Assembly: GCF_007830615.1 (NCBI RefSeq)
Contig: NZ_VLLI01000001.1
Location: forward strand, 544,247 to 608,246
Length of the DNA: 64,000 bases
Reading direction: 5' to 3'
Source: Mucilaginibacter frigoritolerans
GTDB taxonomy: Bacteria > Bacteroidota > Bacteroidia > Sphingobacteriales > Sphingobacteriaceae
The position numbers were made by a program, and so were the translations under genes. A model generated the notes under the pieces. It searched no databases, was not told where the DNA came from, and worked only from the letters and a program-made list of their open reading frames with translations. Below, in pieces: positions 47,323 through 50,807 of the stretch; positions within the stretch are counted from its first letter, which is position 1, and every line of letters starts with the position of its first letter.

Positions 47323-47330
47323 TATCTTTC
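47323..47330. repeat. Left target-site duplication of the transposon
   Basis: TATCTTTC immediately before the left terminal repeat; the same eight bases follow the right end at 50800-50807. The exact duplication shows that the element arrived as a unit. Confidence 0.93.
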
Positions 47331-47356
47331 GGTAGTGTCTCAGTTTGAATTTATTT
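47331..47356. repeat. Left terminal inverted repeat
   Basis: 26 bases, an exact complement of 50774-50799; the next base differs. It ends one base before the internal 16-bp repeat. Confidence 0.95.
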
Positions 47357-47357
47357 T

Positions 47358-47390
47358 ATTTTTATGCTTGACAACTTATAATTAGTTTTG
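47358..47390 (+). promoter_or_regulatory. Promoter region at the left transposon end
   Basis: The 16-bp repeat ATTTTTATGCTTGACA (47358-47373) supplies TTGACA; TAGTTTTG (47383-47390) is an exact TAnnTTTG box ending four bases before the ATG at 47395. TTG and the -7 box are closer than usual, so the exact start is unsure. Transcripts would be nearly leaderless. Confidence 0.45.
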
Positions 47391-47394
47391 TCTT

Positions 47395-47610
47395 ATGGCA
47401 AAAAAGGATATAAACCAGTTGGCAAAATTTATTACAGATGCAGCAACAGGTGAAACCGAAGATATAAATAAAGAAAAGAAATCTAATGAGCCAGTAAAAG
47501 GCAGATTGGGTGGCCTCGTTGGTGGGAAAGCACGGGCAAATAGTCTGACTGCTGAACAACGTTCAGAAATAGCTAAAAAAGCAGCTGAAAAAAGGTGGAG
47601 AAAAGATTAA
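47395..47610 (+). CDS. Small basic GGKAR-type protein, transposon passenger
   Basis: 71 residues. After an acidic-basic N-terminus (MAKKDINQLAKFITDAATGET), it has a conserved-looking core GRLGGLVGGKARANSLTAEQRSEIAKKAAEKRW near residues 37-68. Similar 'GGKARA..LT.EQR.EIAKKAA..RW' tails occur in many short bacterial and mobile-element proteins, but I know no assigned function. The charge pattern would allow nucleic-acid binding. The gene begins right inside the left end and converges on the P63C-like gene, with their ends overlapping by four bases (47607-47610). Confidence 0.75.
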   Translation: MAKKDINQLAKFITDAATGETEDINKEKKSNEPVKGRLGGLVGGKARANSLTAEQRSEIAKKAAEKRWRKD

Positions 47611-48206
47611 ATATATTCTTTAAATAGTTCAGGTTGAAAATGAGTTCCGAATAGTTCGCTATGTTTCATCCTAAACTCATAATAATTTTTGCTCTTATTC
47701 ATTAAACCAACTGCATCTTCTATAAAACCAGCTAATTTCATAATGCCTTCATGGTTTAATAATTTATAATGCTTGGTTCTTCTCCTCATAGAATGCTTGA
47801 CGAATTTATTTTTAACCCCGACGTAATTTAAGAACCCTTTACCAAATCTGTCGTAAATACATTGGTTAATGGTATCCGGTGCAACCTTAGGTTTACTGAA
47901 CCTACGTGTAATTTCCTCTGACCAACCCATTAACTTATTAAACGTTGGTATGTACTCGCGATACTGAGGGTCATAGTCATATTCATTTTCAGCGATAAAT
48001 TTTTTATATGCTTCTTGTTCTTCTTCAATAGAAGTATGTCCGCCACCGGTCAGTTCAATACGCTCTTTTCTGAAAAAAGCCTTTTTTGCTAAAGCTCTTT
48101 CAGCTTTGTCATCGGCTTCTTTTTTAACAAATCCAAGAATAGCCTCTCTATCATCTAATTTGTTAAATAACTCCTGTTGTGCAGTTGTAGTAATTTTATT
48201 TTCCAT
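47607..48206 (-). CDS. P63C-like protein, transposon passenger
   Basis: 199 residues from the ATG at 48206. The C-terminal half, IPTFNKLMGW then INQCIYDRFGKGFLNYVGVKNK, RRRTKHYKLLNHEGIMKLAGFIEDAVGLMNKSKNYYEF, matches the pattern of the phage-associated P63C domain (YxRLxxGVLxEL ... KHxxLTxxxGxxxLxxHL). The N-terminal part is charged and helical. The ATG shares one base with the stop of the upstream HTH-ImmA/IrrE gene (TGATG), so translation is coupled and the two products probably act together. No catalytic motif is known for P63C; the role is unknown. Confidence 0.65.
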   Translation of the reverse strand: MENKITTTAQQELFNKLDDREAILGFVKKEADDKAERALAKKAFFRKERIELTGGGHTSIEEEQEAYKKFIAENEYDYDPQYREYIPTFNKLMGWSEEITRRFSKPKVAPDTINQCIYDRFGKGFLNYVGVKNKFVKHSMRRRTKHYKLLNHEGIMKLAGFIEDAVGLMNKSKNYYEFRMKHSELFGTHFQPELFKEYI

Positions 48207-49417
48207 CAATTGTATAAATTATATTCACTCCTAAGAAATTTAACATGTTCTGAAATTAACTTCCCATCTTTCCACGGATTTTCTATTTTACTAACCATGT
48301 CTTTAAAAGATAAGGGATTATTCTTTTGTGCCCTTGCCCAGGCCTTTCTATCATCCCCCTTGTCAAAAGCGTTGAATGTGTATATTAAGCTGGCATGAAC
48401 TTGATTTTGTTCAGCATATCCTTTAACAAAAGCAGTATCATTTAAATAAGGCCTTACTTGTTTTAATTTATCGGTAGAAAATAAATATTCGCGTGAAAAA
48501 TCATTAGCCTCTTTTTCTTTTTCATCAAGCGAAAAATCGTGTGTTTCCCCGTCCGAAATGTGAGCGTGTTTTAAATCATCCAGGTCAAACAGAACATGAG
48601 ATAATTCATGACACAACCCAAAGAAAATTGTGGCGTAAAAGCCTTTGTAATCGGTTAGCACAACACAGGGCTTTCCATTGACTTTCATCGTAGCACCTCT
48701 TAAATGAAGGTTCTCAAACGGAGATTGATATATAACAGTTACACCAAGTTTATATAAGTCCCTTATTATACATAGAAGACCTTTATCCACATCCGTAGTC
48801 TGCCATCTTATTTCAGGAAAATATTTTATGAGGCCATCTCTATCATAATCATTGGGATTATCAATTTCTTCAAACACCTCTTTTGCTTCGTTGACCCAAA
48901 AGGCACGAGTATAAGTGTTTTTGGGTTTAATTAAACCCGCACTGAAAGCAATCTCATTTGGAGGTAATCGATATTCAAATATGGTTTTTAGACCATATCT
49001 GCCAACTATTTTTTCTTCTATATGCTTATAGTCGGTGATACTTTGTATAAATCCAGCCTTTCGTAATGTAACCAAATCAAAATTTGAGTTGATAAAATCT
49101 ATTTTATTTTGAGGATACGAACTGGTATTTTCGGGGAAATTAATTTCTAACTGATTTAAATAAAGACTGAAAACTCTTTCTTTGGATATCTTTAAAAAAC
49201 TCGCAAGCTTAGGGAAATTGGTATAATCCACCCTTTTGTTGGTTGCGGTTAAAATGCCCTGCAACGCTCTATACTCTATCTCTAAAATTTCTAAAGCATT
49301 TGTAGGAGTAATATTCAATTCGCTTATTCTTTTCTCAAAAAGATCAGTCAGTGTTTCGGCTGATTGTAATCTGCTTATTATCTCATTAGCAAAATCATGA
49401 TCGTTTCCACTTAGCAT
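48206..49417 (-). CDS. HTH-ImmA/IrrE-family metallopeptidase, transposon passenger
   Basis: 403 residues. Residues about 20-95 form an XRE-like helix-turn-helix region (ALEILEIEYRALQGILTATN, LASFLKISKERVFSLYL). Residues about 200-350 form an ImmA/IrrE (DUF955) zinc peptidase with CHELSHVLFD (His 270, Glu 271, His 274) and a third-ligand region in EKEKEANDFSREYL. This fusion is used by phage and mobile-element regulators in which the peptidase cleaves a repressor, and by stress regulators. It has its own promoter, overlapped by a 16-bp palindrome likely bound by the HTH. The downstream P63C-like gene is coupled. Confidence 0.85.
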   Translation of the reverse strand: MLSGNDHDFANEIISRLQSAETLTDLFEKRISELNITPTNALEILEIEYRALQGILTATNKRVDYTNFPKLASFLKISKERVFSLYLNQLEINFPENTSSYPQNKIDFINSNFDLVTLRKAGFIQSITDYKHIEEKIVGRYGLKTIFEYRLPPNEIAFSAGLIKPKNTYTRAFWVNEAKEVFEEIDNPNDYDRDGLIKYFPEIRWQTTDVDKGLLCIIRDLYKLGVTVIYQSPFENLHLRGATMKVNGKPCVVLTDYKGFYATIFFGLCHELSHVLFDLDDLKHAHISDGETHDFSLDEKEKEANDFSREYLFSTDKLKQVRPYLNDTAFVKGYAEQNQVHASLIYTFNAFDKGDDRKAWARAQKNNPLSFKDMVSKIENPWKDGKLISEHVKFLRSEYNLYN

Positions 49418-49426
49418 ATATCTTTT

Positions 49427-49442
49427 ATTGTAGTATTACAAT
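49427..49442. promoter_or_regulatory. Operator copy 1 (at the ImmA gene promoter)
   Basis: ATTGTAGTATTACAAT: six-base arms ATTGTA/TACAAT with four bases between. It lies between the minus-strand -7 box (49445-49452) and the ATG at 49417, covering the expected start of transcription. It differs from copy 2 (49493-49508) by one base. Confidence 0.7.
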
Positions 49443-49444
49443 AT

Positions 49445-49476
49445 CAAAAATACGGCTTTATACACACAACTGCAAA
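49445..49476 (-). promoter_or_regulatory. Promoter of the HTH-ImmA/IrrE - P63C-like operon
   Basis: On the minus strand TTTG (49476-49473), 20 bases, then TATTTTTG (49452-49445): both consensus boxes at standard Bacteroidota spacing. Operator copy 1 lies directly downstream. Confidence 0.7.
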
Positions 49477-49492
49477 TTAAATTCACAAAAAA

Positions 49493-49508
49493 ATTGTAGT
49501 TTTACAAT
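49493..49508. promoter_or_regulatory. Operator copy 2 (upstream of the transposase promoter)
   Basis: ATTGTAGTTTTACAAT, identical to copy 1 except for one central base, 66 bp away. It lies 26 bases upstream of the transposase TTGACA. Two matching sites in one divergent control region suggest one regulator acting on both promoters. Confidence 0.65.
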
Positions 49509-49524
49509 TAAAAATATTAAAATG

Positions 49525-49563
49525 ATTTTTATGCTTGACAGATGAAATAAATCATTATCTTTG
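49525..49563 (+). promoter_or_regulatory. Promoter of the transposase gene
   Basis: The 16-bp repeat ATTTTTATGCTTGACA (49525-49540) supplies the -33 TTG, followed after 18 bases by the exact -7 box TATCTTTG (49556-49563). The ATG comes three bases later, so the mRNA is probably leaderless. Confidence 0.65.
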
Positions 49564-49566
49564 TGT

Positions 49567-50400
49567 ATGAATAAGTTACCAATAGCCAAAAAAGTACAAA
49601 TCATCAACATGTTAGTTGAGGGTATGAGTTTACGTGCTGCTTCAAGAATAGCAGATGTAAGCATCAATACAGTTACAAAATTGTTGGTTGATACTGGTAA
49701 GGCTTGCCAAAATTTCCACGATGAAACTGTGCATGGCCTTAAATCCACCCGTATAGAGGCTGATGAAATTTGGAGCTTCGTTTACGCTAAACAAAAAAAT
49801 GTAGAAGATGCGATTGCACCAGTTGAGGGTGCGGGTGATGTTTGGACTTGGACTGCTATTGATGCTGATAGCAAAATGATTGTTTCTTACTTTGTTGGTA
49901 ACAGGGATGCTCAAACGGGATACGAATTTATGAAAGACGTTAAAAGCCGTTTAAATAATCGTGTACAATTAACGACAGATGGACATAAAGCCTATTTAAA
50001 CGCCGTGCCTGATGCGTTCGGCTCAAAGATTGATTATGCTATGCTTATAAAAATTTACGGTGAACCGGCGGGTACAAATCAAACAGAGCGCAAGTATAGC
50101 CCCGGTGATTGTACAGGTTTTGATAAGAAACGTATTATAGGCAAGCCCCTTGCTGAAAATGTATCAACATCTTATGTAGAAAGACAAAACTTAACCATGC
50201 GTATGCACATGCGTAGGTTCACCCGCTTAACAAATGCTTTTTCTAAGAAGATGGAAAACCATTGTCATGCTATCGCTTTACACTTTGTTTATTACAACTT
50301 CGCAAAAATCCATAAAACATTAAGGGTAACCCCCGCAATGGAAGCAGGATTGACTAAAGATGTAATGAGCATCGAAGATATTGTAAGGTTAGCAGATTAA
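49567..50400 (+). CDS. IS1-like DDE transposase (single reading frame)
   Basis: 277 residues from the ATG at 49567 (an in-frame TTG at 49561 lies within the -7 box). Residues 5-45 are a helix-turn-helix (VQIINMLVEGMSLRAASRIADVSINTVTKLL). The DDE triad is seen as EADEIWSFV (Asp 66), TTDGHKAY (Asp 138) and YVERQNLTMRMHMRRFTRLTNAFSKK (Glu 205 with the basic helix after it). This is the IS1-type order, without the programmed frameshift of classical IS1. It is flanked upstream by operator copy 2 and followed by a terminator at 50426-50450. Its reading frame is intact, so it may still be active. Confidence 0.87.
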   Translation: MNKLPIAKKVQIINMLVEGMSLRAASRIADVSINTVTKLLVDTGKACQNFHDETVHGLKSTRIEADEIWSFVYAKQKNVEDAIAPVEGAGDVWTWTAIDADSKMIVSYFVGNRDAQTGYEFMKDVKSRLNNRVQLTTDGHKAYLNAVPDAFGSKIDYAMLIKIYGEPAGTNQTERKYSPGDCTGFDKKRIIGKPLAENVSTSYVERQNLTMRMHMRRFTRLTNAFSKKMENHCHAIALHFVYYNFAKIHKTLRVTPAMEAGLTKDVMSIEDIVRLAD

Positions 50401-50425
50401 TTTACAGTAACTTATTCATACATTT

Positions 50426-50451
50426 AAGCCACCTAACAAGTGGCTTTTTTA
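50426..50451 (+). terminator. Terminator of the transposase gene
   Basis: AAGCCAC (50426-50432) and GTGGCTT (50440-50446) with a seven-base loop, followed by a T run. Confidence 0.88.
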
Positions 50452-50473
50452 TTAACCTAAAATCTTTTACAAT

Positions 50474-50779
50474 ATGGCTCACATTTATAGAAAAATTCAT
50501 TTTTTTGGAACTACTATCCGAGAAACAATTAAGGTATTATCTACAGATGAGGAATTATCTTTAGAGCCATTTGATAAATCGATTAAAGGTAAATCTACTT
50601 TAAAAAGGGCAAGACGTTCTACGTATTCACACGAAGATAAAACCAGGGTTGTAATGCGAATCATTGTGACCTTTATATTGTTAGCAATAAGCTTTTATTT
50701 ATTGATAGAAAAAAATGAGCAATCAAAAACTTTACCATGTTCAATTATTAGTGCAATAACAGGTTATTGGCTTAAATAA
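50474..50779 (+). CDS. Small membrane protein, transposon passenger
   Basis: 101 residues; a charged N-terminal part (IYRKIHFFGTTIRETIKVLSTDEELSLEPFDKSIKGK, then RRSTYSHEDK), one clear membrane helix at about 60-78 (VMRIIVTFILLAISFYLLI), and a short tail that may cross again (CSIISAITGYWL). I do not recognise a family. The last three codons and the stop lie in the right terminal repeat, so the gene belongs to the element. Confidence 0.6.
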   Translation: MAHIYRKIHFFGTTIRETIKVLSTDEELSLEPFDKSIKGKSTLKRARRSTYSHEDKTRVVMRIIVTFILLAISFYLLIEKNEQSKTLPCSIISAITGYWLK

Positions 50780-50799
50780 ATTCAAACTGAGACACTACC
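50774..50799. repeat. Right terminal inverted repeat
   Basis: Exact complement of 47331-47356, followed by the right copy of the 8-bp duplication. Confidence 0.95.
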
Positions 50800-50807
50800 T
50801 ATCTTTC
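50800..50807. repeat. Right target-site duplication
   Basis: TATCTTTC, identical to 47323-47330. Confidence 0.93.

Follow-up and report, generated by a model that had tools for sequence, protein, structure and literature searches.

A complete IS1-type transposon of Mucilaginibacter frigoritolerans with a near-constant second gene and an exchangeable slot that probably carries an anti-phage module

IS1 was one of the first insertion sequences known, and members of its family, which are usually bare, have terminal inverted repeats, a target duplication of 8-9 bp and a transposase made through an insA-insB' frameshift, single-frame members being said to exist as well. Here we report on an IS1-type transposon that lies in the window, by which we mean the whole 64,000-nt stretch of Mucilaginibacter frigoritolerans (Bacteroidota) DNA analysed (assembly GCF_007830615.1, contig NZ_VLLI01000001.1, positions 544,247 to 608,246). 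Besides its transposase gene it holds a small gene that is near-constant among its relatives, and a slot occupied by genes for a peptidase of the helix-turn-helix (HTH)-ImmA/IrrE kind and a P63C-like protein, a pair which probably forms a toxin-antitoxin (TA)-like anti-phage module. Unlike Tn7-like transposons, with their larger, multi-gene machinery, the family of this element has one transposase and one small protein. Several described systems resemble it in part. Cargo is present in 96% of Tn7-like transposons and, as in the window's family, includes defence and TA genes (PMC8649781). Tn3-family transposons are similar in having varied types of TA module at a set place close to the transposition genes, but they have a transposase of another superfamily, a resolvase and a res site (PMC7157771), whereas the family described here has the small protein as its constant partner, and the proteins scanned from it included no resolvase. 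In PD-Lambda-2, component B alone is toxic, the HigB-like component A neutralises it, and component C is required for defence (Vassallo et al. 2022, PMC9519451); the window's module is like this system in that an HTH and ImmA/IrrE peptidase is followed by a downstream partner, and differs from it in the missing HigB-like gene, the P63C-like nature of the partner and the IS1-type carrier. RosmerTA (RmrA/RmrT, PMC10440598) also combines an HTH-ImmA protein with a variable partner.

The 3469-bp unit at window positions 47331-50799 is a real, complete transposon. Between its ends lie, from left to right, the gene of a 71-aa protein that we call KGG (+ strand), the P63C-like gene (-), the peptidase gene (-), the transposase gene (+) and the gene of a 101-aa orphan (+). 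The 26-bp terminal inverted repeats (left, GGTAGTGTCTCAGTTTGAATTTATTT, 47331-47356, + strand; right, 50774-50799, - strand) are 100% complementary and are flanked by exact copies of the 8-bp target duplication TATCTTTC at 47323-47330 and 50800-50807, both as described in an initial annotation of this DNA. When the whole genome was searched for the end's first 19 nt, three mismatches being allowed, 11 sites were found against none for the reversed control, so the ends are beyond chance. The transposase (277 aa, 49567-50400, + strand) is read from one open frame of 277 codons, without the insA-insB' layout, and the residues D66, D138 and E205 that the same annotation had named as its DDE set do not vary among the 22 sequences aligned. 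It matches PF03400 (9.2e-10; 39.4 bits, above the cut-off of 24.1) and the NCBIfam model transpos_IS1 (6.2e-23; 81.8 bits, under the cut-off of 100), while the NCBIfam IS1595 model gave 27.5 against a cut-off of 75. The element thus has in common with the IS1 family the type of its transposase, terminal inverted repeats, a duplication within the 8-9-bp range (8 bp here, and exactly 8 bp in 103 of the 127 family elements described below) and ends that start with GGTA, as IS1's own do; it differs in its single-frame transposase, scoring under the NCBIfam IS1 cut-off, and its family differs in having the second near-constant gene, cargo in 125 of 127 elements and lengths of 1323-4908 bp.

An empty site, which the initial annotation had named as support to be sought in relatives, was found when the right flank was compared with 61 genomes of the genus (own genome included), 57 of which had a match. 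In G606 (locus L200), the best match after the own genome, the alignment runs across the insertion point with the element absent, the stretch has no transposase, and TGTCTTTC occurs once at the insertion point, the left-flank alignment there amounting to 16 bases only. At L204, L205, L211 and L221 the spacing of the upstream and downstream genes, taken from coordinates, is about that of the joined window flanks; at L201, L202 and L209 the two lie farther apart than that, and other changes must therefore have happened at those loci. Neither of the outcomes that the initial annotation had listed as refuting was encountered, these being close relatives with the cargo at this locus but without the ends, and copies whose ends enclose the transposase only and never the cargo.

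The element is one member of a large and broad IS1-type family, in which a second gene is near-constant and the remaining content is exchangeable and often defence-like. A genome search with the transposase alignment confirmed at least 522 relatives, the best 80 of which were kept; adding the window, the copy L016 of the own genome and G101 (L025) gave 83 genomic loci. From viral contigs the best 80 of 179 relatives were kept. Delimited elements, with ends that begin with GG and match at 17 or more of 20 bases, numbered 127, of which 70 are genomic and 57 come from contigs classed as viral. Both ends were present at 70 of the 83 genomic loci, 63 with an exact 8-bp duplication and 65 with at least 7 of 8 bases; 61 of the 80 viral loci gave end pairs, and once L136, L154, L158 and L180 had been dropped by eye as artefacts, 57 remained, 40 of them with exact duplications. 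Accepted ends were absent from 13 genomic and 19 viral loci. L016 was entered by hand, its ends taken from a separate end scan, and its flanks agree in 6 of 8 bases. The 127 elements are not fully independent, the transposases being identical within each of three pairs of viral elements (L115/L117, L160/L161, L175/L176). The 69 genomic elements besides the window's come from Pseudomonadota (53), Bacteroidota (8), Nitrospirota (3) and Thermodesulfobacteriota (2), with three lacking a phylum assignment. Near its host the element is rare, since only 3 of 201 own-family genomes gave a transposase match (E <= 0.001), one of them weak. We found no published description of such an IS1-type family in the literature searched, which lacks most subscription papers. 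Phages or proviruses may be among the carriers, given the 57 elements from contigs with a viral classification.

The KGG gene (47395-47610, + strand) had been counted as one of four cargo genes; four non-transposase open reading frames (ORFs) are indeed present, but this one belongs to the backbone, given that its profile matches in 124 of the 127 elements (70 of 70 genomic, 54 of 57 viral), the profile having been built from 38 small proteins that are themselves among those then found. In 118 of the 124 the gene is on the + strand and no more than 900 bp from the left end. The proteins have the C-terminal motif GG-KGG-ARA-LT-E-R-EIA-KAA-RW, and their name is a shorthand after that of a Pfam repeat. 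None of the KGG proteins scanned gave a significant match to Pfam or, for the four compared with it, NCBIfam; the AlphaFold model has three helices (mean predicted local distance difference test score, pLDDT, 75.5; predicted template modelling score 0.37). In 296 genomes of a phylum sample the gene occurs at four places in three genomes, always at an element end: two are the own-genome elements, and the other two have an end 72 and about 350 bp upstream, one of them with a transposase start in the stretch available and the other without. Only L179, L183 and L185, which form a single branch, lack the gene, and they have another small protein, K19, in common. Judged by its constancy, the KGG protein is likely a part of the transposition machinery, as accessory factor or regulator. 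We also noticed a KGG-type motif at the N-terminus of P63C proteins of about 350 aa in L033, L036, L051, L063, L076 and L080, which looks as though backbone gene and cargo gene had a common domain.

By contrast with the KGG gene, the slot that separates it from the transposase has exchangeable content. In 125 of 127 elements there is another ORF of 100 aa or more, a rate that may favour close relatives of the query, as the sample consists of the best-scoring 80 + 80 loci; the exceptions, L119 and L153, are nearly bare. The initial annotation had regarded the window's unit as an unusual case of an IS1-type element with cargo. The cargo is there, but among the relatives examined cargo is the rule, and it is its kind that changes. 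When 17 cargo labels, borne by 95 rows, were mapped onto a tree of 125 transposases, 57 changes were needed; 100 shuffles of the labels gave a mean of 69.2 (range 63-75), so cargo is only weakly inherited. For the PD-Lambda-2-like label 14 changes are needed on 17 rows (shuffled 16.1, with 30 of 500 shuffles as low), and for RmrA 15 on 16 rows against a shuffled 15.3. In 15 hand-picked pairs of tree neighbours, one of which (L077/L113) has a common cargo family, homology extends over the transposase and one end or both in all 15 and over the KGG gene in 14, the exception being L072/L110, and mostly breaks off within the cargo. Even at about 90% identity over the transposase regions the slot differs: L038 and L043, whose transposases agree at 91% and whose left ends and KGG genes agree at 90-98%, have different contents in between, and L056 and L059, from one Rhodospirillaceae assembly and 91% identical over the transposase region, hold the three-gene set C16-C11-C12 and a ClpP-like SDH protease, respectively. 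Of the 69 cases in which KGG is followed by a first cargo gene of minus orientation, 22 show an overlap of exactly 4 nt between that gene and the KGG stop. Two genomes each carry two elements with different contents (L065 and L070 in OX638327.1; L056 and L059 in assembly MPMX01), and several modules can therefore sit in one host.

Cargo families were named through scanned cluster representatives, not every member being scanned. The clusters comprise the PD-Lambda-2_B-like peptidase (17 elements), RmrA (16), Panacea (8), PemK/MazF (6), SDH protease (5), methylase-HNH (4), AAA_21 (3) and BRO-N (2), plus many orphans; Abi_2-like cargo, with a Pfam score slightly below the cut-off, is found in three elements, and P63C cargo in 18, 13 of them without the peptidase. 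All four of the RmrA-type proteins scanned matched, with a partner matching RmrT in L047 and L112, while that of L068 matched no RmrT model. Another 76 cargo proteins scanned included RmrT, methylases, a NYN nuclease, a HipA-like kinase, RhuM, a HigB-like toxin, Mrr and others. By our own count a TA or defence family is present in 54 of 127 elements, this being a raw figure without a background rate, and the content of the others is unrecognised or of a different kind. Cluster C2 was discarded as a cargo family, its ORFs being taken for antisense shadows of KGG genes because the KGG profile had matched all 70 genomic elements.

In the window, the slot holds the two minus-strand genes. The peptidase (403 aa, 48206-49417) matches the PADLOC model PD-Lambda-2_B, an Xre-peptidase fusion, at 3.9e-17 over residues 97-345, so that component B of that system is found here; with RmrA models its best score is far weaker (5.8e-6, residues 244-320, in the peptidase domain). 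With PF06114 it scores 6.6e-4, under the cut-off, and its HExxH residues H270, E271 and H274 as well as E301 are the same in all 22 sequences of an alignment. No Pfam HTH model matched its N-terminus, where the HTH was judged from the alignment with sister proteins, one of which (L091) matches HTH_3. A PDB sequence search returned nothing at E <= 0.1 for the peptidase and a single match at E = 0.95 for its partner. The latter (199 aa, 47607-48206) matches PF10546 at 6.7e-5, with 23.9 bits against a cut-off of 26.1 that its counterparts in L016 and L029 exceed, and comparison of its profile with that of the long P63C proteins gave a probability of 98.95. The stop codons of the KGG and P63C-like genes overlap in a single TTAA, and the peptidase stop shares one base with the P63C-like ATG. 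The coupling of the two proteins, proposed from this locus, holds elsewhere, the pair recurring in the second own-genome element on contig C4 (L016), in L029, L045, L079 and G562. Across the family there are 17 cargo-borne peptidases, and all 11 scanned (the window's and ten sisters) match PD-Lambda-2_B: L016 at 1e-17, L029 at 7e-19, L045 at 3.4e-20, L079 at 1.7e-12, and L041, L049, L054, L078, L091 and L132 between 1.2e-35 and 5.8e-51. A partner gene lies between the peptidase and KGG genes in 17 of 17, being P63C-like in five, confined to Bacteroidota or the own genome, and of a type we call K3 in 12; the two types are unrelated by profile comparison, and two K3 proteins and one long P63C protein had no NCBIfam match. 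In L049 and L091 a HigB-like gene, above the Pfam HigB cut-off, lies upstream as in PD-Lambda-2 (PMC9519451), matching the order of that system. Among the homologues listed, 120 for the peptidase and 119 for the transposase, seven contig sizes were common, against a random mean of 0.62 and maximum of 5 in 2000 smeared draws. The 101-aa orphan (50474-50779, + strand) occupies a second cargo slot and, as had been pointed out, its stop falls within the right repeat, which begins at 50774; it has by eye a hydrophobic C-terminal stretch and clusters with no other element's cargo.

The reading that we consider probable is of a whole IS1-type transposon whose left gene is near-constant and whose exchangeable slot holds the peptidase and the P63C-like protein, the two likely acting together as a TA-like anti-phage module. 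The transposase would act on both ends and move the whole unit, leaving 8-bp duplications, with the KGG protein helping or regulating transposition, and slot contents would be swapped through recombination or capture while the backbone is retained. By analogy with PD-Lambda-2 and RosmerTA, phage infection would lead a metalloprotease switch to release growth arrest; the transposon would spread such defence modules, and would persist through a benefit to its host or through the host's addiction. The initial annotation had left the choice between a regulation and a defence unit, and defence is the better half of that label because PD-Lambda-2_B matches, although as similarity only, in 11 of 11 peptidases scanned. 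Against this reading must be set that the HigB-like gene, component A of PD-Lambda-2, is absent from 15 of the 17 peptidase elements, the window's included; that component C was not found, the P63C-like partner having no PADLOC match at E <= 1, and neither K3 nor the two HigB-like proteins any at E <= 0.01; that the predicted model of the P63C-like protein (mean pLDDT 75.5) has no PDB match at E <= 0.001; that 73 of 127 elements have no cargo family counted as defence; and that in 395 genomes of the phylum sample the peptidase (E <= 1e-30) occurs at 13 places in 12 genomes, only three of these places being inside such elements (the window, own C4, and G562 with an exact duplication), while the other ten show neither the ends nor a KGG gene nor a transposase in about 1.5 kb of flank. 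At one of these ten, G305 (L187), the peptidase still has a P63C-like neighbour, so the pair exists alone as well, and is carried by the transposon.

The same place bears on a different explanation, according to which the pair regulates the transposon itself in the manner of ImmA/ImmR, sensing stress and de-repressing the divergent transposase gene. ImmA is described as an antirepressor of a conjugative element (PMC10440598), and the gap between the divergent peptidase and transposase genes of the window contains two palindromes, the predicted operators ATTGTA-GTAT-TACAAT (49427-49442) and ATTGTA-GTTT-TACAAT (49493-49508). These are the only two matches to ATTGTANNNNTACAAT in the window, with 0.01 expected, for a pattern picked after reading the sequence. 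It is part of the defence reading, too, that the HTH of the peptidase would bind both and so control its own operon along with the transposase. The two are not conserved in sister elements, and exact palindromes with 7-nt arms, of which the window's gap has two, occur singly in only 4 of 15 other readable divergent gaps, a further point against the defence reading, so that the operator idea is local. Since no more than 17 of the 127 elements have the peptidase, and since elements whose transposases are closely alike hold other contents, the transposon does not need it, and at G305 the pair stands without ends, KGG gene or transposase in the stretch available, so that we regard a purely regulatory role as quite unlikely. 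That the cargo is selfish, a TA addiction module that prevents loss of the transposon with no net benefit in defence, is unlikely too. It would suit the TA-type clusters, which by their scanned representatives reach 16 elements for RmrA, eight for Panacea and six for PemK, and the TA pairs held within the transposition module of Tn3-family transposons (PMC7157771), but methylase-HNH, Abi_2-like and AAA_21 contents suit defence better, and addiction and defence are compatible with each other. The nearly bare L119 and L153 and the usual bareness of IS1-family elements would agree with a further alternative, a single capture of adjacent genes by an ordinary IS1-family insertion without meaning for a family, but cargo in 125 and the same second gene in 124 of 127 elements leave it hardly any credibility.

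A bolder proposal, which we put forward only tentatively and consider somewhat doubtful, is that the clade is a dedicated miniature cassette vehicle, with the KGG gene and the transposase as its fixed frame, KGG as a new kind of transposition partner and a slot actively reloaded, by which immunity and TA modules, among them new ones, would spread across phyla and into phages. A large IS1-type clade that almost always holds cargo, retains a second gene and swaps defence-like modules would be a short, well-bounded route for immunity genes between phyla. It also makes a practical hunting ground, because the ends are exact and anything found in the slot is a candidate module whose limits are known, and the KGG protein opens accessory factors in IS1-type transposition to testing.

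Among the remaining features, the promoter-like motif ATGCTTGAC occurs twice in the element, with a putative role before the KGG gene (47364-47372, + strand; found there in 19 of 121 elements) and before the transposase (49531-49539, + strand), where it lies no more than 110 bp from the start in 83 of 127 elements against 1.7 in control windows. The complement of the end core, CAAACTGA, precedes the transposase in 38 of 127 elements (control 6.8), and both motifs do so together in 29. Their recurrence hints at an end-binding protein that might also act at the transposase promoter. A generic promoter scan gave fewer sites than shuffled sequence.

Other units were seen as well. At L103 6726-11940, a 20/20 inverted repeat (CTACAACCACC...) with an 8-bp duplication encloses a related transposase; its ends are other than the family's, and it was left out of the 127. 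In the own genome, the second element (L016, C4:203505-207629) has the same KGG, P63C-like and peptidase genes and a transposase 65% identical to that of the window. A 586-bp unit at C3:47098-47683 (L017 599-1184), its flanks agreeing in 6 of 8 bases, encloses between both ends a single ORF of about 167 aa and no transposase, and is possibly a non-autonomous cargo cassette. Finally, on contig C21 (L019 748-1568) there is a remnant with one end, the 3' part of a transposase and a 153-aa ORF, which by eye resembles the 177-aa ORF of the G101 element (L025).

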